64,000 nt of DNA from a virus: the IMG/VR virus record IMGVR_UViG_3300022748_000017, positions 1 through 64,000 of that record; one strand, written 5' to 3'. The notes beneath the pieces are model-generated. The model saw only the letters and a program-made list of their open reading frames with translations. It was not told the DNA's origin and searched no databases. The position numbers and the translations under genes were made by a program. Of the stretch, positions 1,094 to 49,894 are shown one piece after another (position 1 is the first letter of the stretch; the number at the start of each line of letters is the position of its first letter).

Positions 1094-1122
1094 GTTCTAT
1101 CCTATGCAATGTAATGTGATTA

Positions 1123-5219: not shown

Positions 5220-5228
5220 AGCCAATCC

Positions 5229-5711
5229 TTACAGAACAATCACGCCGTCAGAACGGACGATGAACAACAGGAAAATAATCATGTCATCTGCCGGGACAGA
5301 GCCAACCGCAGGGAAAGATACTTTGACGCGACCAGAATATCCAACAGGATTTTGTGCGTTGATTTCCAGTTCGGGGTCTGTAGACATCAAAGACCAAGCG
5401 CCAGCATCAATCACAAGGGTGCAAGTACCCAAGGCCGTATTGATATTGCTGACAGTCAGAGGAATTGCTGTAGGAGTGGGGCTGTAATCAGCGATGTCAA
5501 ACGTCAACCCGTTGCGGGTATCCACAATGTTTGACAGTTCGCGGCGAACGATTTGAGCATCAATGGTTGCTCCAGTCAAATCGACTGGAAGGCCATTTGA
5601 TGTGAAAGACAGATTCCAATAGGTCTGCTGGTCCCAAACAAGTTCGCCAGCAAGAATAGGATTGTCAAAGCCCGAAACCTGGGCCAAAGTATTGCGATTA
5701 AAGACCGCCAT
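5229..5711 (-). CDS. Tail-fibre-associated structural protein (module A)
   Basis: 160 aa from the ATG at 5711 with AGGGA six bases upstream; a GTG five codons further upstream is less likely. The protein is beta-rich, with a DLTGATIDAQI segment like N-terminal domains of baseplate upper proteins. It lies between the tail tip and the collagen-like fibre, so a fibre attachment or connector role is likely. The copy at 46182-46664 is nearly identical. Confidence 0.7.
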   Translation of the reverse strand: MAVFNRNTLAQVSGFDNPILAGELVWDQQTYWNLSFTSNGLPVDLTGATIDAQIVRRELSNIVDTRNGLTFDIADYSPTPTAIPLTVSNINTALGTCTLVIDAGAWSLMSTDPELEINAQNPVGYSGRVKVSFPAVGSVPADDMIIFLLFIVRSDGVIVL

Positions 5712-5739
5712 GTCAGTTCCCTGCACACAGTTAGAACAT

Positions 5740-5754
5740 CCGTGATTCCCACGG
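5740..5754 (-). other. Small conserved hairpin between tail tip and fibre gene (module A)
   Basis: On the minus strand CCGTG and CACGG pair around the loop GGAAT. The second module has the same loop with a longer CCCGTG/CATGGG stem (46692-46708). No T-run follows, so it is not a simple terminator. Confidence 0.35.
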
Positions 5755-5780
5755 GCGAATGCTGTCTTGTTTTAGCGATT

Positions 5781-8700
5781 TTATACCTTGTTTTCCAATG
5801 CAGCAATTCTTTCTTCAAGCTGCTGAATGGACTTCACCAAAGCCGCAACGATACCGTCATTGCTGAAAGATTTGTACCCTTCCAGCGGACCTTGCTCAAT
5901 GGTTGTGACCATCGTAGTATCTGTTCCCACGATTTCCTCAACCTCGTTTGCCAAGAAACCATAGGCTTGTTTGTCGCCATAGTGAGCAAACAATTCATGA
6001 TTCCATTTGAATTGGACTGGACGAAGTTTCTTGACGAAATCCAGACCATAAGATAAATCAACGATGTCTTTCTTGAGCCTTGAATCGGAAGTGACGTTGA
6101 TGTTGATGGCAGCAGTATTTGTGCCCATCGTCCATGAGATGGTTCCCGATGCGCCGCCTGTTAATGTTCCACTAAAAGTCACATCTGTGACACCACTGGT
6201 ATTTCCAGAAGTACCAATCAAACGAGCCGTGATATTTGAGCCAGAAAGGTTAACGGCTGACAGCGGAATGCTTGCAGTATTGAATGAGCCGCCAAGCGTC
6301 AAACTTCCACTGGTTGTGACTGTGCCACTTAGCGTCAAGCCATAGACGTTGCCTGTGCCGCTTACGCTGGTAACCGTACCTCCACCACTTCCAGATGGAA
6401 TGGCCCATGTACCATCATTTCGCAAGAAAGTCGTTGTTGATCCAGTTGGGGAAGCAACGGTATAACCACCCCAACTGAATGTTCCAGAATCAATCCTTAA
6501 AGCAAAACCGCCGCCAGTGTTATTACATTCAAGAGCCGAGCCTGTTGAACTTGTGGTGCTGAAGTAACCACCAATTGAATCACCTTCTCCAACAACGCCA
6601 ATGCCGGGACAAGCGACCCCATTTCGACCAACGCCAAGTACACCCACGTTGTATGAACTTGTAAGCGATGCAGAATAACCTACAACCCCACCACGAACTT
6701 TTCCAGAAGCAGCGGAAATGCCATTAGAAAGAGAAGAATAATCAATGCTGTATGAAGTGGAGCCAATCAAAACAGAGAATGATGCTGGATTGCGACCTTC
6801 AAAATATGCATCGCCATCGGTGTTAATGTCGCCCATAAACAATGCATTGCCAGCCGTATCAATGGTGAATTTTGCAACTCCAGACTGAGCGCCAACAATA
6901 CCGTTAGATGTAATGGCGACACCAGAGCCGCCAGTCAGAACGCCAGATGAGTTCCATGTGATTGTTCCTGTTTTAATTCCACCAGATGTAGTTGGAACAA
7001 TCGTGCCGGTCAAAACGCTTGTTGATGTCTTGCTCACCTTATCAGCAACATCAATAGTCAGGCCATCAATCTCGCCTTGAAGGAAAGCCACATTACCAGA
7101 CTCACTGTTGACTGGAGACCATACAAACGCTGTGCTGCTTGAAGACCTTGTGGATTGACCAAGTTCATTACCAACCACATACGCAAAATAATATGTGCCG
7201 CCAGCCAATGTCAAATTGGCAAAGTCGTATGTTGAACCATTGACCGCCGCTGTACCTGCTGGCGCATTGGCAGTAGCCAGAACTTTCCAATCAAAATCAA
7301 GAGGTGAAGATGATGTGGTGTAGTACAACGTGCCATAAGTCACACGACCTGTTGTCGGCACAGTTACACGAACTGTGAATGTGGGGGGCGTGACGTTATA
7401 GTTGTTTGCAACAACCGTAGGGGCAGTCAGTGCGCTGAAATAGATGGCGCTTGGAATGTTGCTATTTGGAACAGGTGTGTACTGCGTGATGTCAAAGTCA
7501 TCATAGACAGCGGCACTGTACTCATTCATCTCAAGACGAGCGCCAAGCGAACCATCAGGCAAAGATGCCTCATTCACTTTGACAACACGGAACAATTTGT
7601 TTGTCCAGCCATAGTCAGAGTTTGTCACGCTAACCACAGCACCAGCATCAACCTGAATGCCGTAGTAAGTTGTGCTGAAGCTGACAATCAAATCTTCGCG
7701 TGACTGCTCAAGAATCCGATTGGCAAGATACTGAGCGCGAACGCTGTCATTCACCAAGTCATAGCTAACACTGTATTTGTTTACAGGCTCATTTGGATAC
7801 AACAGGATTGAAGGTGTTTCCAAATTCACATAATCAGGCTGATCCCTGTTTGCACTATTGGGAAACTTGGCTTCGACTTGATTGATAGATTGCGTGATGT
7901 CTGTAGCACTGACACGAATCTCGCCAATGATGTTGTCATCATCAAAAGAATAAACTGCTGTTTCAGATTTGTTGATGACAGCAGACCATTGACCAGCAGC
8001 GGCGTTGTAAGACATCCAGCTATCGCAACAAGTCATGATCTTGTCGATATTGTTCAACACAGATTGACCAGCATCCAAAACACCATTGATGCGATAACGA
8101 GCTTCAGTCGCAGAACCGCCTCCAGATGGCGTATAAGTTATCAATCCATCAGAATAAGTATTCAATGCAGTTGCTGATGCAGAGTCAACAAATGCAGCAT
8201 CTACAGCACCGCCGTAGTATGGGTTGGTAACGTAGTCATACCAAACATCACCCGGCTTTGCAACACCAGTGCCATTCAAATAATGGCTTGCATGGAATGT
8301 GATTGGGCTGAGACTTGTTGTGCCAGCATCTTGGCTGTAGTTCAGCTTGATGATTGCAAATGCCAATCCATTCATCTGGCGACCAGTAGAAGGCCAACGC
8401 TGTGCAGATGCAATGTCAGAGCCACCCATCACTGTACTTGGAGCCGCAGCGCCGTTCAGAGATGTAATCGTTCCAGTCGCAGATGACTTGTACAGACTGA
8501 TGTACAAATTGCCGCTGATCTTTGTGTCCACGTTAGGCGGTGTCGCCTCATCGCTCAGGCTCACAACTTTTGTCAAATCTGTGGTGTCAAACGTGATTAG
8601 TCGATCCCCATAATAGAACTTGGTTGTATCAAAAGAGAATTGACCATTAGGGCTGATGCAAGACACAGCCATAACATAGTACATGGTCTTTTGGTCTGTC

Positions 8701-8951
8701 GAAAGAACAGCATCAACAAATGTGCCGCCAAGATACGCATCACCATATACAACCGGAATTGCATTCACATTCGATGGCGGAACTTGCTGGCGAACGCCAT
8801 TGTCTTGTTGACCTTGCTGATTCTGACCAAACACACGGGTCACGATCTGAGAAACAGCAAAGTTAATGGCAAAAGCAGCAGCGGTTTGGGCAGCAGAAAA
8901 CGCAGCAACTGCTGTCGAAGTAATTTCCGCAACAATGATTGACCCGACCAT
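5781..8951 (-). CDS. Central tail-tip protein fused to a fibre with S74 chaperone (module A)
   Basis: 1056 aa. The N-terminus has a hydrophobic alanine-rich stretch, then a tail-hub region with conserved blocks such as IMTCCDSWM and NKYSVSYDLVNDSVRAQY, as in central tail-tip proteins of siphophages. Fibronectin-like beta domains follow around 500-620. The C-terminus is an intramolecular chaperone of the endosialidase type (peptidase S74), starting at SDSRLKKD (residue 955), with GFLANEVEE and a terminal coiled coil. S74 domains trimerise the fibre and then cleave themselves off just before the motif serine (family knowledge). This gene therefore combines tail hub and receptor-binding fibre. 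Confidence 0.88.
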   Translation of the reverse strand: MVGSIIVAEITSTAVAAFSAAQTAAAFAINFAVSQIVTRVFGQNQQGQQDNGVRQQVPPSNVNAIPVVYGDAYLGGTFVDAVLSTDQKTMYYVMAVSCISPNGQFSFDTTKFYYGDRLITFDTTDLTKVVSLSDEATPPNVDTKISGNLYISLYKSSATGTITSLNGAAAPSTVMGGSDIASAQRWPSTGRQMNGLAFAIIKLNYSQDAGTTSLSPITFHASHYLNGTGVAKPGDVWYDYVTNPYYGGAVDAAFVDSASATALNTYSDGLITYTPSGGGSATEARYRINGVLDAGQSVLNNIDKIMTCCDSWMSYNAAAGQWSAVINKSETAVYSFDDDNIIGEIRVSATDITQSINQVEAKFPNSANRDQPDYVNLETPSILLYPNEPVNKYSVSYDLVNDSVRAQYLANRILEQSREDLIVSFSTTYYGIQVDAGAVVSVTNSDYGWTNKLFRVVKVNEASLPDGSLGARLEMNEYSAAVYDDFDITQYTPVPNSNIPSAIYFSALTAPTVVANNYNVTPPTFTVRVTVPTTGRVTYGTLYYTTSSSPLDFDWKVLATANAPAGTAAVNGSTYDFANLTLAGGTYYFAYVVGNELGQSTRSSSSTAFVWSPVNSESGNVAFLQGEIDGLTIDVADKVSKTSTSVLTGTIVPTTSGGIKTGTITWNSSGVLTGGSGVAITSNGIVGAQSGVAKFTIDTAGNALFMGDINTDGDAYFEGRNPASFSVLIGSTSYSIDYSSLSNGISAASGKVRGGVVGYSASLTSSYNVGVLGVGRNGVACPGIGVVGEGDSIGGYFSTTSSTGSALECNNTGGGFALRIDSGTFSWGGYTVASPTGSTTTFLRNDGTWAIPSGSGGGTVTSVSGTGNVYGLTLSGTVTTSGSLTLGGSFNTASIPLSAVNLSGSNITARLIGTSGNTSGVTDVTFSGTLTGGASGTISWTMGTNTAAININVTSDSRLKKDIVDLSYGLDFVKKLRPVQFKWNHELFAHYGDKQAYGFLANEVEEIVGTDTTMVTTIEQGPLEGYKSFSNDGIVAALVKSIQQLEERIAALENKV

Positions 8952-8953
8952 TT

Positions 8954-9400
8954 TTATTCCTTCACAAAACTTGCGCCAAATGGCTTGTAGCCACGTTTGC
9001 TGTAATCAATCAATGGGCCGCTTGCAGAGATGCTTGTAATGGCAACATCAATGTCACCAACCTCAAGCATCTTTGTTGCACGCTCATCAAAAGCCTTCCA
9101 CAGCCTTCCACCAACTGTTCCATTACGATGCTCTGGCTCTACCCACCAAAGAAGCTCATGGAGTTCTTTAACCTTTGGGGACCAGATATTGCTTTGTTTG
9201 ATTGCAATGATGGCCCCTCGCATATTGTTATCAATGTAGATGAACCCACGCCCTGCAATGATGCTGAACAAAAGCTCTTCTACATACTTTGGAAAATGAT
9301 TGTGTGGCTGCGCGAGAACTTGAATTGGGTTCTCATAAGCATATGACTCAACAATCTCCAAAAGTCTTGGAATGTCATATCTTGTTGCAAGTCTTATCAT
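8954..9400 (-). CDS. GNAT-family acetyltransferase-like protein in tail module (A)
   Basis: 148 aa. GNAT features are the MIRLATRYDIPRL start, the WVEPEHRNGTVGG block (acetyl-CoA loop, residues 86-98) and the C-terminal GYKPFGASFVKE. It ends two bases before the tail-tip ATG. GNAT-like proteins occur at this place in some siphophage tail modules; whether it acetylates a tail protein, a host target, or is only a structural use of the fold is unknown. The copy at 49895-50341 is nearly identical. Confidence 0.75.
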   Translation of the reverse strand: MIRLATRYDIPRLLEIVESYAYENPIQVLAQPHNHFPKYVEELLFSIIAGRGFIYIDNNMRGAIIAIKQSNIWSPKVKELHELLWWVEPEHRNGTVGGRLWKAFDERATKMLEVGDIDVAITSISASGPLIDYSKRGYKPFGASFVKE

Positions 9401-10075
9401 TTAATATCCATATGTTCCGGGAATGTTTTCGCCAGTTGCAGCCATTGACCCATCATAAGAAGTCGTCGTGTCAGTTGCCTGTGTGTCAGTTTGTGGTGGC
9501 TTACCAAAGTCAAAGTAGGTATTGGCAATCGTAGACACTCTATTCATGCTTATGTCGCCGGGATAGAAAAATTGCCAGCTACTTTGATTGGTTTTTACGC
9601 CTGACAAACGATTCTCAAGGACTCTTCGCATTGAAGAGCAAGCAATTGAACAAGTTGCAACCCTTGTCCGAGCTTGAGTGTTGAAATCTTCCGAAATCGA
9701 AACACTGTTGATGATGCCTTGATAACGCTTGAAGAATTGAGTTGTCGGGCTTGTGATGATTTGGTTGTTGTCATCAAAGAAGCCACGCCAGATTTCAACC
9801 AATGATCCTTTGATGTCGCTACTCAAAATGATCGACACAGCTTCTGGGTTGATGCCAGTGAGGGAAATGGTCATATCATCACTGGTTGCTCTCATGTCAC
9901 GCTGGACATCACCAACAGACAAAAGAATGCCAAGGTTAGTGAATGAGATGCCATCAACCGTGATTGGCGCTGCGGCATTGCAGAATGTATATACAGTCTC
10001 AGCCTTACCGACTGTAAGACGAACAAATTCTGCCTGTCTAATTTGTGGCCCATTAAGGGCCGACATTGCTGTCAT
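9401..10075 (-). CDS. Tail hub/distal tail component (module A)
   Basis: 224 aa, probable structural tail protein by position between tape measure and tail tip. The start overlaps the previous stop as ATGA. It has cysteines in TCSIACSS and a low-complexity T/S-rich C-terminus that varies between modules (TATDTTTSYD here). No family can be named with certainty; lambda gpL/gpM-type minor tail proteins are the positional equivalents. Confidence 0.7.
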   Translation of the reverse strand: MTAMSALNGPQIRQAEFVRLTVGKAETVYTFCNAAAPITVDGISFTNLGILLSVGDVQRDMRATSDDMTISLTGINPEAVSIILSSDIKGSLVEIWRGFFDDNNQIITSPTTQFFKRYQGIINSVSISEDFNTQARTRVATCSIACSSMRRVLENRLSGVKTNQSSWQFFYPGDISMNRVSTIANTYFDFGKPPQTDTQATDTTTSYDGSMAATGENIPGTYGY

Positions 10076-10668
10076 GTGATGTACTCCCGAAAGACAAATG
10101 CATCATCCCAATTGACGAATGCGCCATCCGTCATTGGAGTAAGAGTATACGTTGGGCAACGCTCTGCGACAACCGTGAACGTGCATTCTGTGCCCATGTA
10201 GACAGTCGTCCCAGAACTTGGCGTTCCAATCAGAGGACGGTGAATTGTCACCACAGAGCCAGCCGAATCAGCCGTGATTTTGTAGGTGTAGCCACCAATC
10301 ATGATGAAATCACCAGCCTTGAATGTGCCATTTGAAGTCAGATTCAAAGTCTGTGTATTGGCTGCTGGAGTACCATTCAAGGTTGCAGCCGTAGCCGTAC
10401 CCTGCATCTCCAAGAACCAAGACAGATTGTTGCTATCGAATGTGATGGTTTCAGGCAACTGACGATCTTTGTTGTCAATTGTCTGGATAATTTCTCTGGC
10501 TTGTGGATAGTACAGATAGTTGTGCGGAGTCACGGTGAAAACCCAAGGCACAGCAGTCAGATATTGAGCCACAGTGATGTATCCAGAGCGAGTGACTTGT
10601 TGACCAACCATTCGACGGTTGTTCACAGTCATCGCCTGCTGAATCTCAAAGATTGTTTGGAAACTCAT
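10072..10668 (-). CDS. Distal tail/minor tail protein (module A)
   Basis: 198 aa, beta-rich, directly after the tape measure gene (ATGA overlap, site GGGAGAAGG). Conserved blocks include RRMVGQQVTRSGYITVAQYL and NWDDAFVFREYIT. Position fits a distal tail protein that joins tube and tip. Very similar to 51001-51597. Confidence 0.7.
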   Translation of the reverse strand: MSFQTIFEIQQAMTVNNRRMVGQQVTRSGYITVAQYLTAVPWVFTVTPHNYLYYPQAREIIQTIDNKDRQLPETITFDSNNLSWFLEMQGTATAATLNGTPAANTQTLNLTSNGTFKAGDFIMIGGYTYKITADSAGSVVTIHRPLIGTPSSGTTVYMGTECTFTVVAERCPTYTLTPMTDGAFVNWDDAFVFREYIT

Positions 10669-13127
10669 GCCCTTCTCCCGTTAGAGGCCAATGACTTGTT
10701 TGCATATGTGTTTGCAGCCCAAATGGTGTTTGAGCTTTCCAGCAAACGCTGCTCAAACGACTTGGTATCAATCGCATTGATATATGTATTGTTCACAGTT
10801 GTAGAGCCGCCCATACCAGCAAGTTGGTTGTTTGGAATGATTGTCCCGGCAGATCGTGGAATAAAAAGCTCGGGTCCTTTTTCGCCAACAGGATATGCCG
10901 TCCCAGCATCAACCGGCCCACCAGCAGCATGTCCCGGACCCAATTTAACGCCACTGAAATTCAAAGCATATTGACTTGGATTTGCAGATGCTCCAGCAAA
11001 AAAGCTACCAAGCAGCCCACGCAACAACGTCATGGCTTGCAGCTTCATGTTCATGATGAGCATGTCTTGAATGACACTACGAGTGAAATCCTTGATGCTG
11101 AACTTGCCAGTGCGGACAAAGTTTTCGATGGCAGAAGACATGTTGCTCCATACAGCGTCATACATGCCTTGCATGTACTTAAGCGATTCCATGAACTTCA
11201 GGTTTTCAATACGAGCTTCAGAAACTCCACGCTTTTGCTTCTCGTAGTAATCCTGATCTTCTTTGGAGAGAAGACCATACTCTTCGCTTCGCTTCCATTG
11301 AGCAATCTCTTTTTCAATCTTCAGCTTCTCTTCGGCAATGCTCTTTTCCTTTTCAGTTGCACCAATCATTTCCATCTGGAGATGCAACAAATCAGACTGA
11401 TACTTGACCTCATCTTTTGATGTTTCAGTCTCACGAAATACCTTTAATTTGGCATCAATTTTCTTTTGATTCAATTGATTCTCAAATTCTTCTTGATGAC
11501 GCAATGCAGCAATCTCAGCATCAAGCTCTTGAATAAATCTTTTCTTACGGAGTTCAACACGTTTCTTTTCAGCTTCAGCAACAGCTTCAGAAATTTTGCT
11601 CTGACGCAATTTTTCTGTTTCACCAGCGTACTGATTAAAAGTCTCTTCGTTCTTTTTACGCTCTTCGTTTTTGGCTTGCTCAATTTTTCGAGCAAGCTCC
11701 AGTTCAATCTGCATCTCTTCAGATGCATTAGCCATACGCGCCTTGAACCTTGCGTCTGTCTTTGCCTTCTCAACTTCTTCCGCAATCTTCTTATAGCCAG
11801 CAAGACCGCCAGCTTTATCCCAAAGATTGATTTCCTCCTTGGATGTGCCAACATCTTTTGCTGCATCCGAACGACTACGCAAACGAACAATCTCAAGCAA
11901 AGCCTCTTTTTGATCTTTGAGTGCTTGAAGGTTTTTGAAGTTGCCTTCCTTGAACAAAGCATTGAACAACGTATGTTGCATCATGCTTTCATTCAAAGTA
12001 TCAATCTGCTTTGTCAATGCAGCGATATTTTGCTCAATGGTCGGGCCAGAAAGAGCTTCTTTGGTAGAGTCCCACCAATCGCTAAAAGTCTTTTGCAGGA
12101 AACGCCATTTTTCTTGAAGCATCCCAACGCCACGGGCTTGCTGCTCAAGTTTGGTTGTCAAGGCAATAGAAATCTCTTTTGCGGCCTCTTGAGTCTTTCC
12201 AAGTTTCTCAAGCGATTCAATGTTCTTGTACTGCTCAAGAGTCAAGAAATTCATCTTGTCATTGAGTGACTTTGCCTCAGAAGCTGAGCCACTAAGAGCA
12301 CCAGACAATGCTTTTGCTGCATCAGCACCAGAGATTCCTGCAACCCGAGCATATGTAAGCACAGCACGTTCAGCCGCACCAATGGACTCTTCCGTGAACT
12401 TCCCAGACTCCATTAAGCCCATCAAAGCATCTTTTGCAGTGCTGATTGATGTTCCACTGGCCTGAGCCATTTCTTTGGAAAGGCTGCGCCACTTCTCAAG
12501 AGTTACACCAGAATAGTTGCCAGTCAGCGCAATGGTTTTGTTGAAGTTATCAATCTCTTCATCAGCCTTGTATGCCGCATAAGCAAGCGCAGCAAAGCTA
12601 CCAATGATGCCTCCAAGAGCCAACTTAAATGGAGAGAACAAAGAAAGCACAGCGCGGAAAGCATTGCCAACACCGCCCATCGAATCTTTCAACTGACCAC
12701 CTTGCTGAATGAAGGCAATCATCGCGTTCTGACCGCTGGCAATCTGTGTAAAGAAGTCGGTAAGCTGATATGTCACTTGCAACTTTTGCTGCTCAGACAT
12801 TGCACCACTCATCTTCTTCATGGATGCCGCTTTTGCGTCATAGGCTTTTGCTTCAGCAAGCAACATGTCTTTTGTGTTCTGAGCCGCATACATAAAGCGG
12901 CCCTTGCTGATTTCACGCTCAATCTGCTCGACTTTTGTTAGAGTCTTGCCATAGTCTTCAGTAGCATCTTTGAGCGCAGAAACCTCACGCAAAGCAGCCT
13001 TGGTATCTTTCTCAACTTGATTGGAAAATTCTTTGAATTGTTTTTTGGCAGCGTCAATCCCCGTAACAAGCTCACCGCTGTCAACGCCAAGAACAATGCC
13101 AAGTCTGGCTAGGTATTGAGAAGCCAT
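10665..13127 (-). CDS. Tail tape measure protein (module A, 820 aa)
   Basis: 820 aa. The N-terminus (MASQYLARLGIVLGVDSGE) is of the phage tape-measure type. A hydrophobic segment at 160-186 and long lysine/glutamate-rich coiled coils (about 330-640) follow. The C-terminus has lambda-type hallmarks: ENFVRTGKFSIKDFTRSV and GEKGPELFIP. It fixes tail length inside the tube and enters the host membrane on infection. At about 1.5 angstrom per residue (general rule) the tail would be near 120 nm. The second module's protein is 159 residues shorter. The start overlaps the upstream stop (TAATG). Confidence 0.92.
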   Translation of the reverse strand: MASQYLARLGIVLGVDSGELVTGIDAAKKQFKEFSNQVEKDTKAALREVSALKDATEDYGKTLTKVEQIEREISKGRFMYAAQNTKDMLLAEAKAYDAKAASMKKMSGAMSEQQKLQVTYQLTDFFTQIASGQNAMIAFIQQGGQLKDSMGGVGNAFRAVLSLFSPFKLALGGIIGSFAALAYAAYKADEEIDNFNKTIALTGNYSGVTLEKWRSLSKEMAQASGTSISTAKDALMGLMESGKFTEESIGAAERAVLTYARVAGISGADAAKALSGALSGSASEAKSLNDKMNFLTLEQYKNIESLEKLGKTQEAAKEISIALTTKLEQQARGVGMLQEKWRFLQKTFSDWWDSTKEALSGPTIEQNIAALTKQIDTLNESMMQHTLFNALFKEGNFKNLQALKDQKEALLEIVRLRSRSDAAKDVGTSKEEINLWDKAGGLAGYKKIAEEVEKAKTDARFKARMANASEEMQIELELARKIEQAKNEERKKNEETFNQYAGETEKLRQSKISEAVAEAEKKRVELRKKRFIQELDAEIAALRHQEEFENQLNQKKIDAKLKVFRETETSKDEVKYQSDLLHLQMEMIGATEKEKSIAEEKLKIEKEIAQWKRSEEYGLLSKEDQDYYEKQKRGVSEARIENLKFMESLKYMQGMYDAVWSNMSSAIENFVRTGKFSIKDFTRSVIQDMLIMNMKLQAMTLLRGLLGSFFAGASANPSQYALNFSGVKLGPGHAAGGPVDAGTAYPVGEKGPELFIPRSAGTIIPNNQLAGMGGSTTVNNTYINAIDTKSFEQRLLESSNTIWAANTYANKSLASNGRRA

Positions 13128-15252: not shown

Positions 15253-15777
15253 TTAAGCGTTGTTCGACCAACCGTAGCTGTTGCCACCAACCGGATGGAT
15301 GGTGAATTCAAATTTACCTTCAGCAGTAGGAGACATGTCCCACTTCAGGCCACCAACGCGACCATTGAAGGCGTATGCCACAGTGTCAGTGCCGTCATAC
15401 ACAGCAACAACATAGGTACGGATGATCGTACCGCTTGTGCCGTCAGCACGCATCAGCAACTGAGCAGGATCAGCAGGGTTCCATGCGGCAGTGATGGTCA
15501 AAGAAGTCACTTGGTTTTGGGTAGTGATCTTTGCACCAGTACGAGCACCAGCAACCGAGTAAGCTGCAAAAGCGTCATCAGAACCGAAGGCGGGGACTGC
15601 TTCCACAGGAATCTGTTCGCCATCAGTGCCAGTGCCGCCAGCAGACGTACCGATAATGTCAGCAACTTGACCTGTCCAAGTACCCAGTTGGGTATCTGTC
15701 AGAGCAGTAGGGTTAGAGCCGGTTTGACACCACAGCGTAGCAACGTAACCGGGCAAGACTTTGTTAATCAGAGCCAT
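15253..15777 (-). CDS. Major tail tube protein (module A)
   Basis: 174 aa, beta-rich, starting MALINKVLPGYVATLWCQTG and ending HPVGGNSYGWSNNA. Position after the tail terminator and before the chaperones, and strong conservation with 55217-55741, fit the tube subunit. It forms stacked hexameric rings around the tape measure. Confidence 0.82.
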   Translation of the reverse strand: MALINKVLPGYVATLWCQTGSNPTALTDTQLGTWTGQVADIIGTSAGGTGTDGEQIPVEAVPAFGSDDAFAAYSVAGARTGAKITTQNQVTSLTITAAWNPADPAQLLMRADGTSGTIIRTYVVAVYDGTDTVAYAFNGRVGGLKWDMSPTAEGKFEFTIHPVGGNSYGWSNNA

Positions 15778-15815
15778 TTTGAGCTTCCTTTAAAGAGTTG
15801 AACAATTATCTTGTT

Positions 15816-16235
15816 TTAAGCTGGGATGTCAATGGTGCAATCCAAATAGATTTGCGCCATCTTCTCTTCGTTATTGTAGCTGTTATATAGCCACAAAACA
15901 TCAGCTTTTGCGATGAAGAAACCGTCAGAAGGCGAACCAAACTGACCGCTATATCCATGCAACTGCTGGAGAATTTGATTGGAAATTGTGAATCCATCTT
16001 CAATCTGCTGAGTGAAAATGGAAATCTGAAATGTCGGCCTGTCAATGCCCTTGTTGCCCTTTGTCTGGCCCGTATACACAGGCTGATGGACATCACGCAG
16101 CATCCAAGTAATGAACTTGGGCTGATTGGCAAAGTTCCTGTTGAACGCCGCATACACGGGCACAGGATTGACGATTTGCGTCAGTTGGTACTGAATCGCT
16201 TTACCGTAATCAACGACATTGAGTTGCTGGACCAT
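15816..16235 (-). CDS. Tail terminator/completion protein (module A)
   Basis: 139 aa. Conserved blocks PVPVYAAFNRNFANQPKF and FQISIFTQQIEDGFTISNQI. It lies between head-closure protein and tail tube, where siphophages encode the terminator that caps the tube. Called by position and size. Confidence 0.7.
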   Translation of the reverse strand: MVQQLNVVDYGKAIQYQLTQIVNPVPVYAAFNRNFANQPKFITWMLRDVHQPVYTGQTKGNKGIDRPTFQISIFTQQIEDGFTISNQILQQLHGYSGQFGSPSDGFFIAKADVLWLYNSYNNEEKMAQIYLDCTIDIPA

Positions 16236-16580
16236 TTAGACCGCCGTAACTGGATCAGAACGATAGCACATCAACGTCACGCGCATACGGTCATTCGATT
16301 CACGAACATCCGTGATGCGCCAATCGTTACCGCGCCAAGTGATTGAATACGACTGCTGGTTATCAACAATCGTCTTCATGTTCGGAGTGTAGTTCAACGT
16401 GAAATTGACCAAATCCTGATACAGACGATACCTGTCCGCAATCTTCACACTGTTTGCGACATCAGCAACCCTTGCGCGAGTACCAAACCACACCGTTTGC
16501 GTGGTCGATTGCTCACCGAAATCCGACTTTCCAAAAGCCAGATTGTTGATCGTGATGTTCTCAAAACGAGCGATTGTCAT
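16236..16580 (-). CDS. Head closure/head-tail joining protein (module A)
   Basis: 114 aa. The C-terminal block YSITWRGNDWRITDVRES is typical of small phage head-tail joining proteins. Its ATG overlaps the connector stop (TAATG). It should form the ring that seals the connector after packaging. Confidence 0.78.
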   Translation of the reverse strand: MTIARFENITINNLAFGKSDFGEQSTTQTVWFGTRARVADVANSVKIADRYRLYQDLVNFTLNYTPNMKTIVDNQQSYSITWRGNDWRITDVRESNDRMRVTLMCYRSDPVTAV

Positions 16581-17251
16581 TACATCACCAATGGCTTGTA
16601 TGAACGGAGCAGCGTTGTCACACCAAACGGAATGTCCTTCAGTTTGGTTTCAGTAGCATTTGCACGATTGTTGTACAAGTGCGTGAACAACAGCAGACCA
16701 GCTTGCTTAATCACAGGGTACGTCTGCAACGGGTTCGGAGCAGTGGTGTACTCAACAATGATTGGCGCAGTCATGCTGCTGTTGATGTTGGTCGGCAGAC
16801 TCGACACGATGACCTTGTTGCCGCTTGCATCGTAGTAATACTCAGTGTCGCTGATGACAGTCAGGACAGGAGGCGTTGCATCGCTCCAGAATGCCACACG
16901 ATTGATTTCCACACCAGACAAATCAGGATACTGATTCTGGCTGACTTCAGGAAGGTCAAGGCAAGTTGGAGAAGCCACAAGGCTTTCTGGTCCGTACCAA
17001 ACTCGGTACGTCACAGGGAAAATCGACAGGCCAAGATAATCCTCAATTGCTTGGCGCGTAGCCAGTTCAAGGCTCTTGAGGTATGTATCTTGGCTTTCGT
17101 CTTCAAACAGGTTGATATGCTGTGTAATCTCATCCAGCGTCAGCCAAGGCGTAACCACATCGCGGTCAATCTGCTCAACCTTTGTGTAGTTGAACGGATT
17201 GCGCGTTTGTGCGCCAAACGGCAGACCGGAAAGAGCGTTATCAGCAGCCAT
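16580..17251 (-). CDS. HK97 gp6-like head-tail connector (module A)
   Basis: 223 aa. The N-terminal helical part (TPWLTLDEITQHINL and LELATRQAIEDYLGLSI) is the gp6-like connector signature. The C-terminal half ends LKDIPFGVTTLLRSYKPLVM. It forms the ring below the portal. Homologue: 56546-57214. Confidence 0.8.
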   Translation of the reverse strand: MAADNALSGLPFGAQTRNPFNYTKVEQIDRDVVTPWLTLDEITQHINLFEDESQDTYLKSLELATRQAIEDYLGLSIFPVTYRVWYGPESLVASPTCLDLPEVSQNQYPDLSGVEINRVAFWSDATPPVLTVISDTEYYYDASGNKVIVSSLPTNINSSMTAPIIVEYTTAPNPLQTYPVIKQAGLLLFTHLYNNRANATETKLKDIPFGVTTLLRSYKPLVM

Positions 17252-17261
17252 ACTTCACCTC

Positions 17262-18278
17262 TTAAGCACTCATACGAGCGCCAGCAAACGGATCACGGAC
17301 AGTAGACACAACACGCTTTTCAGCATAGATGGTCATGAAGCCGGGAGTGGTCTGTTCAAACAATTGAATCGACATTTCCTCATTGTCGCCGATTGTCATG
17401 AAACGAGGCCAGTTTGCCAAATAAATTGGGAAGCTGGTAGACAAATATGGGTTCGGCACAACTTTGAAACCGAACATATAAGCTACAGCACCACCATCGT
17501 CATCACCAGTTTCCACGAACAGCGGCAAACCTTGACCGTCTTTCAGCTTACGCAGAGAGTCAATCATGGAAGGACGAATGTGCCATGCGTTGCCGGGAAG
17601 AGGCCAGTATTGGCTTGGGAAAGCGTTCACGATGTCAACAATGTTGTCATAGGTCACGCCACCGCTGGTTTGTGCAACTGTAGCCAGTGTGTGAATACCA
17701 GCAGTGATTGCAGTGCCAGAAGTGCCATAAGCAGCCTCTGAACCAGACGTATACATGTCCAGACCGCGAAGGCCAGATGTTGCGCCAGTGGAAGTGGTTG
17801 TAGAGCCAGCTTGGTCGTTGTTGATCGCCATCGAAGCACCTTCGATTTGCGAGAATTCCAACATCAGGTCTTCAACCAAAGTGTTTTGCAAGTTGTTCAC
17901 ATCCGACAGAACTGCTGTACGGACGGGAAGCTGTGCAGTCACAGCACGAACGGGCAATTGCCAGATCGAGGTGTTTGTGCCGGGAGTACCAGTGTTATTC
18001 TGAACTGGATAGCCCCAAGGATTCGTTTGATAAGCAGCGTTACCAGTCTTGGCAACGAACTGTTCATCAGAACCGTCAGTTGTCACCACGCGGGCAGCTT
18101 GACGGAAAGGGTTTGCATATCGCAGCGTTGCGAATGCGTCATCAAAGATAACACGACCACCAATACCCGAACCGGAACCAGTCAACGAGGACGCTTCCTT
18201 GAGGTCGATGGAGACTGTGCTGCCTTCTGTATAGGCTTGTTTGATTCCGCTAAGGATTTTCTCGGTGATAGTAGTCAT
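17262..18278 (-). CDS. Second HK97-fold capsid protein, scaffold-less paralogue (module A)
   Basis: 338 aa. It aligns with the major capsid protein just upstream over nearly all of its length: EASSLTGSG, then the TDGS, FVAKTGNA and PWGYPVQNN region, TSIWQLPV, RTAVLSDVN, GLRGLD, a PSQYW block and a C-terminal EKRVVSTVRDPFAGAR. It lacks the roughly 105-residue N-terminal scaffold domain and has only a 30-residue leader. It could be a dedicated vertex (penton) protein, as gp24 is in T4, a minor lattice subunit or a decoration protein. The same pair exists at 57226-59639, so it is maintained. ATG at 18278 with AGGAAA. Confidence 0.88.
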   Translation of the reverse strand: MTTITEKILSGIKQAYTEGSTVSIDLKEASSLTGSGSGIGGRVIFDDAFATLRYANPFRQAARVVTTDGSDEQFVAKTGNAAYQTNPWGYPVQNNTGTPGTNTSIWQLPVRAVTAQLPVRTAVLSDVNNLQNTLVEDLMLEFSQIEGASMAINNDQAGSTTTSTGATSGLRGLDMYTSGSEAAYGTSGTAITAGIHTLATVAQTSGGVTYDNIVDIVNAFPSQYWPLPGNAWHIRPSMIDSLRKLKDGQGLPLFVETGDDDGGAVAYMFGFKVVPNPYLSTSFPIYLANWPRFMTIGDNEEMSIQLFEQTTPGFMTIYAEKRVVSTVRDPFAGARMSA

Positions 18279-18301
18279 GGCATTTCCTAAAAAAGCGAAT
18301 T

Positions 18302-18327
18302 AAAAAGCGGGGGCCGTAGCCCCCACT
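18302..18327 (-). terminator. Intrinsic terminator between the two capsid genes (module A)
   Basis: Minus strand GGGGGC-TACG-GCCCCC, then GCTTTTTAA: a six-base-pair GC stem on a UACG tetraloop followed by a T-run. Partial termination here would raise major capsid mRNA over the downstream paralogue. Conserved at 58262-58287. Confidence 0.85.
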
Positions 18328-18331
18328 TTCA

Positions 18332-19681
18332 TCAGGTTGCTGTACCTGTCGAACGATAGCGAACGCCAGCGAACGGATCGCGCACAGAAGTTGCCAGACG
18401 CTTTTCACCGTAGAAGGTGATGTAGCCGGGCAATGTCTGGTCATAGCGACGAACCAGCATGTTCAGACGGTCGATGATCGTGTGGAAACGCGACCAGTCA
18501 GCGAAGTACGCAGGGTACAGGCTGGTAGTGCCAGCAGAGCCAGTAGTGGCTTGTGCAGGAGCGTCAACGTAGCTGTTAACAACCACATCGAAGCCCAACA
18601 GTTGACCGACGATACCGTCAACCGACAAACCTTCGTTACGGTTGAAGATAGGAGCGCCGTTGTCATCAACCAGACCACGCACTTGCGACAAGAACACGTT
18701 GTTCATCATGATCTTGGCATTGGGGGTCCAATACTGCTGTGGCAGAGCGTAGATGAAGTTAACGATGTCCTTGTAGGTCACGTTACCAGCGCCCACGGTG
18801 TTGGCGTTAGTGGTCAACTGGTCATAGGTGTTCAGGCTATGCAGACCAGTGTTGGAGCCAGTACCGGAAGTACCGAAAGCAGCAGTCGAGTGCGTACCAC
18901 CAGTGTAGGTAGCGTTAGCACCGCCGTACTGATCCAGACCACGCAGACCATCAGCACCACCAGTAGCTACGGTAGTACCGTCACCAGACTGGTCGTTGTT
19001 GGAGATCATGGACTGAGCTTCAGCTTGCGCGAATTCAGCCAGCATGTCATCAACCACGTTGGCTTCCAAGCCGTCGATGTCGTCCAGAGCCGCAGTACGG
19101 ATCGGGAACTGCACGTTGATGTCCTTCAGAACGATTTGCCAGATACTGGTGTTTTCAGTAGTAGCCGAACCGTTGTTCTGGATTGCATAGCCCCACTGAG
19201 CGCCAGCGTTGCCAGTCTTCACACGGAACTGATAGCTGGAACCATCGGTAGCAACGGTGCGAGACACGCCGCGCAGAGGGTTTTCCAGACGCAGAGCGCG
19301 GAACACGGGATCGTAAGCAGTACGACCACCTTTGCCATCACCGCCAGCGGTCAGAGCAGAGGCTTCAGTCATGTACGCAGCCAGTTGCGACTCGTCAGAG
19401 AAAATCTTCAGTTCTTTGTCCACATTGGACTTGCCAGAAGCCATCTCTTTGAGTTGTTCGCGCACCAGACGGTTAACGTCTTGACGAACGCTCTTGGCCT
19501 TCTCTTTGTGGATAGCAGGAGCTTGCACAGAAGCAACTTTGGCTTCCAGAGCAGACACCATTTCGCTGAATTCAGCTTTGACAGCTTCAACAGCAGCGGG
19601 GATAGCAGCTTCAACTGCTTGGATTTTCTCGGCTTGCGAAGCCTCGATAGCATCCAGTTTTTCGATGATTTCTTTAGACAT
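18332..19681 (-). CDS. Major capsid protein with scaffold domain (HK97 type, module A)
   Basis: 449 aa. Residues 1-105 are an alanine/glutamate-rich coiled coil (IIEKLDAIEA, then AAIPAAVEAVK) matching a delta/scaffold domain removed by the prohead protease. From EASALTAGGDGKGGRTAYDP on it has the HK97 coat fold pattern, ending FYGEKRLATSVRDPFAGVRY. It forms the icosahedral shell. It follows the protease by two bases. Confidence 0.92.
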   Translation of the reverse strand: MSKEIIEKLDAIEASQAEKIQAVEAAIPAAVEAVKAEFSEMVSALEAKVASVQAPAIHKEKAKSVRQDVNRLVREQLKEMASGKSNVDKELKIFSDESQLAAYMTEASALTAGGDGKGGRTAYDPVFRALRLENPLRGVSRTVATDGSSYQFRVKTGNAGAQWGYAIQNNGSATTENTSIWQIVLKDINVQFPIRTAALDDIDGLEANVVDDMLAEFAQAEAQSMISNNDQSGDGTTVATGGADGLRGLDQYGGANATYTGGTHSTAAFGTSGTGSNTGLHSLNTYDQLTTNANTVGAGNVTYKDIVNFIYALPQQYWTPNAKIMMNNVFLSQVRGLVDDNGAPIFNRNEGLSVDGIVGQLLGFDVVVNSYVDAPAQATTGSAGTTSLYPAYFADWSRFHTIIDRLNMLVRRYDQTLPGYITFYGEKRLATSVRDPFAGVRYRSTGTAT

Positions 19682-19683
19682 GA

Positions 19684-20481
19684 TTAGCCTTTCAAGCGTT
19701 TGTCTAGGAGTTTAAGAAGTTCACGCTGCTCAAGAGCCGCGAGAATTTCGGCGGTTGCCTCCACATCAGAATCACTCTGAATAGGCGCAGTTTCAGCAGA
19801 TTCACCAACGGCATCACGCTGTTCGATCACCTGCTTGAATACAGATGCGGCGGCAACCGACATCTGTTTGGACAGACCTGCATCCCGCAGGGCTTCTTCC
19901 AATACCTTCAAATCAGCAGAGCCATCTGGACGGAAATACTCCAGCTTCTTCACTTCTGCTTTGGGGTTGTTTGGATGCATCACAACGCTGGTCTCGCGCA
20001 GACCACCTTTGGTGATTTGGAAGTAACCATCTTCGTAAACATTGTCCGAGCCAACAGTCATCGGTGTGCCATCTTCTTTGACCCACTGATATTCGTCAGC
20101 ATAAGCACCAACAGAAACGCCACCAAACATGTTTGGCGATTCGCTCATGACTTGATAAAGGTCCGAACCACTTGTGGTGTTCAGGAACAAACGACCACTG
20201 GCATTCATGCCATCATCGTCCATTTCAAGAGAGGTCCATTCACCAACAGGAATCTGGTCCGAGTTGTGATTAACGTACATTGGGAGAGGACGGCCCGATG
20301 CGGCAAATTCCTTTGCCCATTCCATAAATCCTTCTGGCTTGTAGAAGAACTTACGACCATCAGCGCCTTCGCGTGCGCCCCAAGTAGTGATACGAGCTTC
20401 AATCTTTCCTGTCGGTTCGCCGCTTGCGGCCTTTTCGGACAGGTTCAGTTTTGCTTCGCAGATGAGATTGATTTGCTTCAT
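19684..20481 (-). CDS. HK97-family prohead protease (module A)
   Basis: 265 aa. Peptidase S78 features: H72 in YVNHNSDQIPVGEW and S123 in GGVSVGAYAD, then the RETSVVMHPNNPKAEV block. It cleaves the scaffold domain of the capsid protein and itself during maturation. The C-terminal third is acidic and coiled. ATG at 20481 with AGGGG. Confidence 0.9.
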   Translation of the reverse strand: MKQINLICEAKLNLSEKAASGEPTGKIEARITTWGAREGADGRKFFYKPEGFMEWAKEFAASGRPLPMYVNHNSDQIPVGEWTSLEMDDDGMNASGRLFLNTTSGSDLYQVMSESPNMFGGVSVGAYADEYQWVKEDGTPMTVGSDNVYEDGYFQITKGGLRETSVVMHPNNPKAEVKKLEYFRPDGSADLKVLEEALRDAGLSKQMSVAAASVFKQVIEQRDAVGESAETAPIQSDSDVEATAEILAALEQRELLKLLDKRLKG

Positions 20482-20614
20482 TGATTGCCCCTAAACCAAT
20501 TGACTGGTTGTTGTCTTGTATTTTAGGGGGTTGCCCTTGTAATACAGGCAACGGTGTCTTAGGTCTAATGACCTGTTTTGCCAATGCTACCAGATATTTT
20601 GAATCAGTACGCAT
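20399..20614 (-). CDS. Possible small ORF between portal and protease (module A)
   Basis: 71 aa open frame beginning seven bases after the portal stop and overlapping the protease start by 83 bases. A similar frame exists at 60360-60566. The aligned centre is GQPPKIQD here and GRPPKIHD there; the latter is part of an AT-hook-like KKRGRPPKI. No convincing ribosome site. It could be a real small DNA-binding protein or chance; conservation at the same place is the only support. Confidence 0.35.
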   Translation of the reverse strand: MRTDSKYLVALAKQVIRPKTPLPVLQGQPPKIQDNNQSIGLGAINEANQSHLRSKTEPVRKGRKRRTDRKD

Positions 20615-20620
20615 TTTTTA

Positions 20621-22018
20621 TCAAGTCTTCCCGATATTCATTTTCTTGGTCTGATTTCCACCACCACCGCCTGTATCCTGCTTACTGCTGCCGGGAGTTG
20701 GTTCGGCTGCTTTGGCATCTTTGACCAGTTCATCAGCACCTTCTTTGTTCGCCATGCCCATGTATTCACGGGCTTCGTTCGGTGTCATGATGCCATTAGT
20801 CACGCCAGCGGTGACAAAGTTCATCTGATCCAAAGGCGCACCTTTCAGGAAGTCCTTGGTGTCAAATTCGATGCTCAGAGATGGATAGCCGGGGAACAAG
20901 TGATCGGCAAGTTTCTCTTGCGCGTTCACAATGACCGGATACATAGCCGATTTATAAAACTCGTCCATTGCAGTCTGGCTGTTATTGAATTTGCCGTCAT
21001 GGATGCCAATCATGGAAGGTGGTACGCCAAACAGACCGCAGATTCGGCGCATTGTCTGGAGTTTCAGGGCAGCAGCATCAGCATCTTGGAGCGTCAGCAT
21101 CTCCAACTTCTGGTACTTCATGCCTTGGTCCAGCAACATGCCTTGACCGGGCTTGGATGGATCAGATTGGCGAGAACCAACCATGTTGCTCCAAGCCTCT
21201 TTCAGACGAGCAGCAATCTCCTTGTACTTGCCATCAGGAATGACCGTATCTGTCACAAACATGCCAGAAGGTTTTGCACCATTTTGCATGACGTAGTTGG
21301 CATACAGGTCGATGTCCTGATCCAAGCCACACAGTTCAGCCATCAACACGCCTTTGTTGAAGCCAGCCGAACCTTGCCATGCCATCTCTTTGCAGTGCAT
21401 GACCTGATGCGCTTTCAGAGGCTGGTCTTTGCTGAAACCATAGGAAGGAGTCGAAAGACGATAGCTCGGATAGCGGGTAGGTGTAATCGTGACTGCAATC
21501 AAAGTTGAGTCAAGAATGTACATCTCCAAAGGAGTCTGAGTCGAACTCTCTTGGTCTTTCCTCCACCACAGAGTAAAGGCTTCGCCAGACAGTTCGTACC
21601 ACATCAGCCATTGATACCAGAACTCATAGCGAGACTGGAAATTGTTTGGCTTGTTCAGGAGCTTGGCAACTTGCTTGGCTTTCGTCTTGTCACGATCACC
21701 AACAATCTTGCTTTTGACAGCATCAACGTAATCGCCTTCCTCTGTCTCGTACATGACACGGATAGGCAACTGCGCCAAAGCCCGAGCTTTAATCGCCACA
21801 CAGGACATGATCGTGCTGTTTCGAGCCAGCATCGACATATCCACAGGCCGACCAGCATTGGTCGTGCTTGCTGTGGTTACATACAGGATTTGGGTATTAA
21901 CTGTCGGGTTTTTGTTGTCGCCTTGATAAACAATGTTGTTACCAAGAGCCGTCTGACCGAACATTGAGTTCGATTCATCAACCTGTTTTTTACCCTTGAA
22001 AATGTCCAAAAGTCCCAT
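20621..22018 (-). CDS. Portal protein (HK97 type, module A)
   Basis: 465 aa. Blocks typical of HK97-like portals: RNSTIMSCVAIKARALAQLPI, YEFWYQWLMWYELSGEAF, GVPPSMIG and LTPNEAR-like ITPNEAREYMG. The C-terminus is glycine-rich (DTGGGGGNQ). It forms the dodecameric DNA channel. ATG at 22018 with GGAG. Confidence 0.92.
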   Translation of the reverse strand: MGLLDIFKGKKQVDESNSMFGQTALGNNIVYQGDNKNPTVNTQILYVTTASTTNAGRPVDMSMLARNSTIMSCVAIKARALAQLPIRVMYETEEGDYVDAVKSKIVGDRDKTKAKQVAKLLNKPNNFQSRYEFWYQWLMWYELSGEAFTLWWRKDQESSTQTPLEMYILDSTLIAVTITPTRYPSYRLSTPSYGFSKDQPLKAHQVMHCKEMAWQGSAGFNKGVLMAELCGLDQDIDLYANYVMQNGAKPSGMFVTDTVIPDGKYKEIAARLKEAWSNMVGSRQSDPSKPGQGMLLDQGMKYQKLEMLTLQDADAAALKLQTMRRICGLFGVPPSMIGIHDGKFNNSQTAMDEFYKSAMYPVIVNAQEKLADHLFPGYPSLSIEFDTKDFLKGAPLDQMNFVTAGVTNGIMTPNEAREYMGMANKEGADELVKDAKAAEPTPGSSKQDTGGGGGNQTKKMNIGKT

Positions 22019-22042
22019 GATTAGCTCCTATTTGACGACATA

Positions 22043-23722
22043 TTACCATTCAAATGAACGGAATCCAAATGAATCGCTCACAAATACGTTATCCAAATGG
22101 CAGTGCATCGCCATAATCATGGCAATAATACCGTCAACTTTGGCAGATGGGTCTGCTTCGTTCTTTCTGACCTTCACGTTTCCGTTGACATCAATGTAAA
22201 CCTCGCAATTTCCTAGCTGCCAACCAACAAAAGGATTGCCATCATGCTTAATGGCTTTCTTCAGAATCAATTGCTCGGTTGTTTTAGACGGGTTTGATAG
22301 AACCGCCATACCCTGACCGACCTTTTTAACAGGTAAACCGTCAGCATAAAGATTGGCGACAAGAGCCGCAGCGTTATAGGGATCGTATCCAATTTCTTTG
22401 ACTTCATATTTCTCACACTGTTGCTTGATGAACGATTCAATCTCATTCAAGTCAGTCACGTTACCCGGTGTGAGCCTCAAAATGCCACTTTTGTGAGCCT
22501 GTTGGTAGATAGACTTGTAATGGTTCGGCACAAAATCCAATGACTCCTCTGGCAAGAAGAATTGGAACTGCGAATAGAAATCTTCTTCGCCATATCGGTG
22601 CAAAGTAACGACAGCGTTTAAATCTCGCGTGTGCGCCAAGTCAAAACCGATAAATGTTGACTCAGGTTTATCCTGTGGTTTTTCAGCAACAGACTCATCC
22701 CAGAAGCGCCTGTCAACCCATGCGGCATTGGCAGACACATAGATGTTCAATTGTTTGCACAGGAACTCATTCAGGCTGGCTGGCTTGGCAGATGCCTCTT
22801 CAGCCATGTGCTTGATGTGTTCTTTGGTAACTGACACACCTAGCATAGGATTGGCTTTGCCCCAAACTTCAGGATTGCTCCATTCGTCACCGGGGTCGAT
22901 GCTGTACAGCAGTCCAAACCACCTGAAATTGTCAGCAGCAGCACCACGCAAAACCGACCGGAAATGGTTCAAATCCTCGTAGAACTTTGTCTCTTTGGTA
23001 AAGCTGGCAGTGGTCAAATACATCCGCAATGGATTCTTACGAGCGCCCATACCAGAGTGCAACACTTCAATACTGGACCGCTCCACAATCTGGGCAGCTT
23101 CGTCAATCATCGCGACACTAGGGTTTTTACCATCACCGGTTTTTCTGTTCTCACGGGACAGGGCGCGGTAAGTAGAAGTCGAGTCGCCAGCCTTCTTTAG
23201 CTCACTGCGGTAAACAATAAACTTAGCCGCCAGTTCTGCCTTCATGCCTTCGACAATAGCTTTAGACGAATCAAAGCAAATAGACGCTTGGTCACGGTTG
23301 GTAGCCAGAGTAAACACCTCCGCGCCAGCATCGCCAAATTGCAACTCATAAAGCGCAATAATGGACGCTATAGTGGTTTTCCCTGATTTGCGTGGAACAA
23401 ACAAAATGACATCGGTTGTCCACCGAGTGTTCACATCGTTCTTAGCGCGAAAGCCATATATGCCAGCCAGAAACATAATCTGGAACGGCTCAAGCTCAAT
23501 TGCTTTGCCAGCATCTGGACCTTTGACATGTCGGCAGAACCTGACAAACTTCAAAATGTGTTCGGCTTTGTCAGCCACAAATTCGTAGGGCGCATCCTTG
23601 CGTTCAGCCATGTCAAGGAATCGCTGGCAAGCCAGTTTGACATCCTCACACGCTGCTATATCCCCACGAACTACACTAATGGCGTATTGAAACGCTGATT
23701 CAAGCTGTGGCGAATAACTCAT
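22043..23722 (-). CDS. Terminase large subunit (module A)
   Basis: 559 aa, HK97-like Terminase_1 type. ATPase Walker A at 109-117 (VPRKSGKTT), Walker B at 203-209 (VAMIDEA), and RNase H-like nuclease motifs GFDLA (D361), DPYNAA and KVDGIIA near the C-terminus. It drives packaging and cuts concatemers; related enzymes mostly make cohesive ends. Roughly half identical to the enzyme at 61989-63653. Confidence 0.93.
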   Translation of the reverse strand: MSYSPQLESAFQYAISVVRGDIAACEDVKLACQRFLDMAERKDAPYEFVADKAEHILKFVRFCRHVKGPDAGKAIELEPFQIMFLAGIYGFRAKNDVNTRWTTDVILFVPRKSGKTTIASIIALYELQFGDAGAEVFTLATNRDQASICFDSSKAIVEGMKAELAAKFIVYRSELKKAGDSTSTYRALSRENRKTGDGKNPSVAMIDEAAQIVERSSIEVLHSGMGARKNPLRMYLTTASFTKETKFYEDLNHFRSVLRGAAADNFRWFGLLYSIDPGDEWSNPEVWGKANPMLGVSVTKEHIKHMAEEASAKPASLNEFLCKQLNIYVSANAAWVDRRFWDESVAEKPQDKPESTFIGFDLAHTRDLNAVVTLHRYGEEDFYSQFQFFLPEESLDFVPNHYKSIYQQAHKSGILRLTPGNVTDLNEIESFIKQQCEKYEVKEIGYDPYNAAALVANLYADGLPVKKVGQGMAVLSNPSKTTEQLILKKAIKHDGNPFVGWQLGNCEVYIDVNGNVKVRKNEADPSAKVDGIIAMIMAMHCHLDNVFVSDSFGFRSFEW

Positions 23723-24092: not shown

Positions 24093-24836
24093 TTAACTTA
24101 ATAATTTCCATGCTGTTGCAGCACAAAGTGGGACTTGTCCATTACCAATGGCTCTAAGTCTGTCCACCCCAGCGGCCACCCCATCAACCATTCGACCCAC
24201 ACCGGGTTCAGCTTCCCACCATTGTTTTGCTCCATATCCCGAACTGCTTGATTGATGGTGTACTGAGCCGGATGTCCCGACTTTCTTTTGGGAGTCCAAT
24301 TCGGTTGTGTTCCACGTTGACCGCAACTCGCATCTGGCGTTGGGAACTTTTGCAACAATCCAGATTCTGTCCCTCTGATGGTTTGCTCCAACGTCCGCTG
24401 CTCCCAGCACTCCCCATTTCGCATCAAACCCCATTGCGGCCAAGTCTCCGAGAACGGTTCCAAGTCCCCTAGAAGTGAGCATTGGTGAGTTCTCCACAAA
24501 GACGAATCTGGGTCCCACTTCGTGAATGACCCGTGCCATTTCTCGCCACATTCCGGAACGTTCTCCATCAATTCCTGCGCCTTTTCCTGACGCTGAAATA
24601 TCTTGGCATGGAAAGCCTCCCGATACGACATCAACAATTCCTCGCCACGGTTTTCCGTCAAAGGTTTGTACGTCATCCCAGATTGGGAAAGGCGGGAGAA
24701 GTCCGTCATTTTGTCGGGCGCACAATACGCTTGCGGGATAGGGTTCCCATTCAACAGCGCAGACTGTTCGCCATCCAAGGAGTTTTCCCCCAAGTATTCC
24801 TCCACCAGCACCTGCGAAAAGAGCCAACTCATTCAT
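24093..24836 (-). CDS. DNA (cytosine-5) methyltransferase
   Basis: 247 aa. Motif I FAGAGGG (7-13), catalytic PCQ with C77 in GGFPCQDIS, ENS at 115-117, QRDR at 154-157, and motif X GNGQVP at 231-236. All key motifs are present; the target-recognition region is short (about 160-215). It sits between an HNH gene and the small terminase and probably protects phage DNA from host restriction. The target sequence is not readable. Confidence 0.9.
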   Translation of the reverse strand: MNELALFAGAGGGILGGKLLGWRTVCAVEWEPYPASVLCARQNDGLLPPFPIWDDVQTFDGKPWRGIVDVVSGGFPCQDISASGKGAGIDGERSGMWREMARVIHEVGPRFVFVENSPMLTSRGLGTVLGDLAAMGFDAKWGVLGAADVGANHQRDRIWIVAKVPNARCELRSTWNTTELDSQKKVGTSGSVHHQSSSSGYGAKQWWEAEPGVGRMVDGVAAGVDRLRAIGNGQVPLCAATAWKLLS

Positions 24837-40442: not shown

Positions 40443-40473
40443 TTCTTATCCTATGCAATTCAATGAATATATT

Positions 40474-43200: not shown

Positions 43201-43211
43201 GCTTCACCTCA

Positions 43212-43604: not shown

Positions 43605-43613
43605 GATTATTCC

Positions 43614-49892: not shown

Positions 49893-49894
49893 TT

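Follow-up and report, generated by a model that had tools for sequence, protein, structure and literature searches.

A scaffold-less coat paralogue adjoining the coat gene as a candidate penton protein in small long-tailed aquatic phages

Why should a long-tailed phage of about 39 kb carry two different coat-protein genes side by side? According to a 2026 review, phages of ~40 kb such as HK97 and P22 use the product of a single gene for both hexons and pentons, and only rarely are the two encoded by different genes, T4 being the example named (PMC13185644). In T4, gp24 is a paralogue of gp23 that has a propeptide of 10 residues instead of 65 and forms 11 vertices (PMC9958956). Here, we analysed a window of 64,000 nucleotides (positions 1-64,000 of a 75,987-bp IMG/VR virus record) for which the original prediction had been either a separate penton protein or a mixed lattice, built from a scaffold-bearing coat protein (C1) and a scaffold-less second one (C2). 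Both reading frames lie exactly where that prediction had placed them (Table 1).

Self-comparison of the contig revealed two related phage genomes of ~39 kb at an offset of ~39.35 kb, with matching blocks in the window at 1-10847 versus 39350-51779 and at 15253-23156 versus 55217-63099. The identity between the two is 92-84% in the tail/fibre region and 69% in the head region, and the contig is therefore two related phages rather than a single genome carrying two head modules. The 76-kb contig is probably two co-occurring relatives that were joined in assembly, although a real concatemer is conceivable; tandem prophages in a bacterial genome are not supported, since the record is a virus contig with two related ~39-kb phages. 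The C1/C2 pair is present again in the second module (57226-59639). On the minus strand, the gene order is TerS-like, TerL, portal, S78 protease, C1, C2, gp6-like connector, head-completion protein, tail terminator, major tail protein (MTP) and tape measure (the TerS and MTP labels come from position, and neither protein has a family match). This order is that of a standard HK97/lambda-type long-tailed phage head-tail module, in agreement with the siphophage context that had been proposed. Elsewhere in the window, a cytosine-methyltransferase-like ORF of 247 aa (24093-24836, minus strand) is almost wholly overlapped by a second ORF on that strand (24098-24832, 244 aa), which is read in a different frame. 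Each phage genome also has one long collagen-like protein with GPTGPTG repeats (2547-5225 and 43614-46178, minus strand), the genes of which adjoin glycine-rich tail-fibre-like ORFs and a glycosyltransferase/TPR-like ORF (14-1093 and 39363-40442).

Table 1. Positions in the window of the coat genes, the intergenic hairpins and the neighbouring head genes.
Feature	Position	Strand	Remarks
C1, scaffold-bearing HK97-fold coat protein, 449 aa (proposed hexon protein)	18332-19681	-	PF05065 E 1.9e-28; top codon adaptation among head genes
C2, scaffold-less HK97-fold coat paralogue, 338 aa (proposed penton protein)	17262-18278	-	PF05065 E 3.2e-22; 41% identity to C1
C1-C2 hairpin, GC-rich, into T-run, intrinsic-terminator/attenuator-like	18303-18330	-	12-bp stem, 7 G-C pairs, 5 T
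C1' (second module), 445 aa	58302-59639	-	
C2' (second module), 338 aa, 65% identical to C2	57226-58242	-	
C1'-C2' hairpin + T6	58268-58289	-	9-bp stem, 8 G-C pairs, 6 T
S78-type prohead protease, presumed remover of C1 scaffold domain	19684-20481	-	PF04586 E 6.4e-9
Portal protein	20621-22018	-	PF04860 E 4.9e-61
gp6-like head-tail connector, 10 bp after C2, no hairpin in between	16580-17251	-	PF05135 E 1.1e-5

The results show that C2 is a tandem coat paralogue of C1 (BLASTP, 41% identity over 352 columns, E 8e-87) and that it is without the N-terminal scaffold domain of ~105 residues, both as originally proposed. The alignment begins at residue 94 of C1, and residues 1 to ~105 of C1, which are unmatched in C2, are helical in a C1 model of poor quality (pLDDT 44). 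Both proteins are above the curated cut-offs of Pfam Phage_capsid (PF05065) and NCBIfam TIGR01554, the C2 match to the latter starting only at profile position 128, and both match the phrog_10 major head protein. The BLASTP and Pfam matches and the recurrence across loci rule out a chance similarity or a mis-called ORF. The AlphaFold2 model of C2, which is of modest confidence (pLDDT 58.8, pTM 0.63), matched HK97-fold capsids in the PDB (Foldseek, probability 1.00), namely the Rhodobacter capsulatus GTA (RcGTA) capsid (6tb9, E 3.9e-12) and HK97 (8fqk, E 2.8e-11); a fold other than the HK97 coat, which the original prediction had named as its refutation, was not seen. The C1 model was too poor for use in this test, and the best PDB match of C1 by sequence is RcGTA (E 4.5e-9). 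C1 resembles HK97 gp5 and the RcGTA major capsid protein (MCP) in its HK97 fold, the scaffold (delta) domain of ~100 residues fused to its N-terminus, the adjoining gene for an S78 protease and the gene order. In those systems, however, hexamers and pentamers are built from a single coat protein, while here a second coat protein without the delta domain is encoded next to the first.

The pair is widespread. When 50,697 phage records were searched with C2, one match was obtained, Methylophilaceae phage P19250A (KX815270.1), a circular genome of 38.7 kb that carries the tandem pair in the same order (59% identity for C1 and 59% for C2) and in which C2 is annotated only as 'hypothetical protein'. 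Profile scans of IMG/VR gave at least 577 confirmed relatives of C2 and at least 590 of C1. Both genes were found in 268 of the 280 fetched loci that have either gene, the complete pairs amounting to 178 distinct protein pairs, and strand and gene order were uniform in all loci inspected for order. In the remaining 12, the locus is cut by a contig end or belongs to L089, in which a piece of phage is fused to bacterial dnaX sequence. As a chimeric contig, L089 was ruled out as a single-capsid member; no other candidate for such a member was found among the 280 loci. Methylophilales phage Venkman (L086, MT375522), which others have described as a marine P19250A relative on the basis of vConTACT2 and synteny, was rejected as a pair carrier, having a single MCP and a separate scaffold gene. 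Two contigs have a homing-endonuclease-like ORF between C1 and C2, 3' of the intergenic hairpin (L020, ~5430-6003, the same contig as L225, with a match to phrog_314 at E 5e-15; and the C1-C2 gap of L203), and T4 segD sits in a similar place between genes 23 and 24. A stretch of ~101 codons upstream of C2 matches phrog_2859, of unknown function (L026:5677-5979, E 1.6e-26; also in L027, L106, L116, L120 and L123), and in L026 and L027 its frame continues without a stop into C2, which might there have a new N-terminal domain of about scaffold size.

In a maximum-likelihood tree of C1s, C2s and the MCPs of eight single-coat phages, the C2s form one clade (100/100) that is as old as the sampled radiation, and C1 and C2 together are split from the eight single-coat MCPs by a long branch (100/100). 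C1 is paraphyletic in the best tree, with C1 monophyly not rejected (AU p 0.29). A recent duplication is ruled out, because C1 and C2 group apart throughout the sampled radiation and are only 39-48% identical within one genome. An insert around a GLRGL motif is common to C1 and C2 and missing in the single-coat phages, which suggests that the duplication most likely occurred inside the present phage lineage. Since then, the two proteins have changed in concert: their distances are correlated (Mantel r 0.84, 0 of 5000 permutations), C2 changes ~1.17 times as fast as C1, and the median dN/dS of 0.16 for C1 and 0.13 for C2 indicates purifying selection on both.

Within the coat domain, C1 and C2 differ most clearly in two regions. 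The first is a loop that is long in every C1 (~366-390), flanked by one strand that ends in VVVN and another that starts with YP-YF-DW; the loop region is 50-52 aa in C1 compared to 37-45 aa in C2 and the single-coat phages. By the HK97 fold, we would expect the loop to be part of the axial domain, which lines the capsomer axis, and the short form in C2 may simply be ancestral. The second is the GLRGL insert, which is extended further in C1. In place of a scaffold domain, C2 has a lead of ~28 residues before an EAS-LTG motif common to C1 and C2, with a helix predicted at residues 4-18 in the AlphaFold model and conserved I8, I12, K13 and A15. The motif would be where the mature coat sequences of relatives begin, and the lead, the cleavage of which is putative, resembles the 10-residue lead of T4 gp24.

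We then surveyed the gap between the two genes in 66 non-redundant loci with shuffled sequences as the control (means of 0.1-0.95). A GC-rich hairpin followed by a T-run is present in the C1-C2 gap of 60 of the 66 loci, compared to 0.95 in the shuffles, and no terminator-like hairpin was found after C2 (0 of 66) or before C1 (0 of 65). A simple terminator scan had missed the C1-C2 hairpin because the T-run overlaps the stem. The 60 hairpins comprise 56 distinct stems, with G-C, C-G, A-T and T-A pairs at the same positions, which argues that the hairpin is maintained as a structure. In the closest single-coat phages, a terminator-like site lies directly after the MCP gene in 2 of 8, and several others have a GC hairpin there, which suggests that the MCP-level expression unit does not include C2. 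Most simply, the high-level coat transcript would end at the hairpin, and C2 would be expressed by read-through together with the low-copy connector genes. Since it also occurs after single MCPs, the hairpin may be old and inherited with the 3' end of the MCP gene, or may stabilise the mRNA, instead of being a device for the C1:C2 ratio. Ribosome-binding strength did not separate C1 from C2.

Codon adaptation, for which the MTP of other loci served as the reference, also ranks the two genes differently. The highest value is that of C1 (0.782), followed by the MTP (0.748), C2 (0.731), the protease (0.699), the connector (0.697), the head-completion protein (0.692), the portal (0.684), the tail terminator (0.667) and TerL (0.662). 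Locus by locus, C1 exceeds C2 in 45 of 47 and C2 is below the MTP in 36 of 47, while C2 exceeds the portal in 37 of 42, the connector in 36 of 47 and the tail terminator in 43 of 47. A T=7 siphophage has ~360 copies of hexon coat protein, 200 of MTP, 55 of penton protein and at most 12 of the others. The observed ranking, which is correlative, is the order expected for these copy numbers and would fit tens of copies of C2, although the codon bias of C2 could partly be left over from its C1 ancestry. Lower production of C2 than of C1 is predicted, with fairly good, if indirect, support from the hairpin and this ranking.

These data bear directly on the second half of the original prediction, a mixed lattice in which C1 and C2 co-assemble in comparable amounts, as heterohexamers or with C2 in some of the hexons, and C2 is a second major coat protein. 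Both proteins keep the full coat fold including the spine helix, the E-loop region and the P-domain, and their common insert and co-divergence would fit such a lattice; however, a hairpin that stands between the genes and not after both, together with the lower codon adaptation of C2, points to unequal amounts, and we consider a mixed lattice unlikely. C2 could also be a minor coat protein at one special place, such as the capsomer ring by the portal, or a low-copy factor in assembly or size control, as its predicted low expression, the connector gene 10 bp away and the missing scaffold domain would allow. This is quite unlikely, given that its codon adaptation above that of the portal, connector and tail terminator suggests more than ~12 copies, and that a complete coat fold has no obvious role but lattice occupancy. 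It is very improbable that C2 is an alternative or facultative coat (for another capsid size, as a decoy or as a stress variant) or a neutral duplicate that stays outside normal virions, a view in keeping with the lack of any reported proteomic detection of C2 in open texts and with its 'hypothetical' label in P19250A, but opposed by its presence in every intact locus among those fetched, its dN/dS of ~0.13 and the age of its clade.

Universal pairing, the hairpin and the codon data together favour C2 as an always present, sub-stoichiometric coat protein. Since the 11 five-fold vertices are the lattice site most naturally suited to a minority coat variant, and T4 provides a precedent, it is probable that C1 builds the hexons and that C2 is dedicated to the pentons, in a division of labour like that of gp23 and gp24. 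Thus, the anatomy that had been predicted was right, and of the two outcomes offered, the penton is the best supported, by co-conservation, the hairpin, codon adaptation and the axial loop. The monomer models are weak (pLDDT 59 for C2 and 44 for C1), and no virion proteomics or structure was found for any member in the open literature; we infer the vertex location of C2, the T=7 lattice, the substoichiometry in the virion and the cleavage. In the proposed mechanism, an ancestral HK97-type coat gene would have been duplicated within a ~39-kb siphophage lineage. C1 would have kept the N-terminal scaffold domain and acquired longer axial-domain loops, and C2 would have lost the scaffold domain and, by analogy with HK97, become unable to start a procapsid alone, so that we would expect it to enter a shell that C1, portal and protease have nucleated. 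The hairpin directly 3' of C1 would allow only partial transcription into C2 and so make C2 the less abundant subunit; ~360 C1 and 55 C2 would be needed for a T=7 shell. The protease would cut C1, and perhaps the short lead of C2 too, near the common EAS-LTG motif. We regard as evenly balanced the broader proposal that widespread ~39-kb long-tailed aquatic phages evolved a penton protein from their coat protein apart from T4, and that a conserved transcription attenuator in the C1-C2 gap sets their hexon:penton ratio.

The likeness to T4 lies in neighbouring coat paralogues after a protease gene, of which one has a long and one a short propeptide, the latter being putative in C2, and in a longer A-loop in the hexon protein (PMC9958956). 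The unusual A-loop of gp23 is important for A-domain contacts, and the mutations that bypass gp24 are partly in the A domain (PMC9958956). Unequal amounts of the two proteins are predicted here from sequence, and C2, like gp24, is a divergent MCP paralogue that is constantly beside the MCP (268 of 280 loci, the rest being contig edges or chimeric). In contrast, T4 is a myophage with a genome of 170 kb, a scaffold protein that is separate from the coat and a prolate head of 120 x 86 nm, whereas the phages here have a ~39-kb genome, a long non-contractile tail, a scaffold fused to C1 and PF05065 as the only coat-family Pfam match. Neither C1 nor C2 matched the T4 Gp23 family in Pfam, and for C2 nothing but PF05065 was found at E<1. 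gp23 and gp24 are only ~20% identical, compared to 39-48% for C1 and C2. By sequence, C2 is not a member of the gp23/gp24 family; it would work like one if the penton reading is right. Among siphophages, the phiCbK-like Caulobacter phage Colossus also has two MCP paralogues, but its duplicate is ~21 kb away, occurs in one phage only and has no known role, and the putative vertex band of phiCbK is processed MCP (PMC3556154). In the literature, the only phages found with two coat paralogues were the T4-type phages and Colossus with its duplicate, and no report on the role of the C1/C2 gene pair was found in open texts.

Good evidence for a division of labour between hexon and penton proteins has so far come mainly from T4, a much larger phage, and here hundreds of small water-borne phages carry a coat-protein pair. 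If C2 is the penton protein, this would be a second origin of that division, in a small-genome phage, and some small heads of T=7 size would use more than one coat protein. A gene labelled 'hypothetical' and present in hundreds of phage contigs would then be accounted for as well. Since the paralogues are still ~44% identical, hexon/penton specialisation would then be open to dissection by swaps in a simple capsid.
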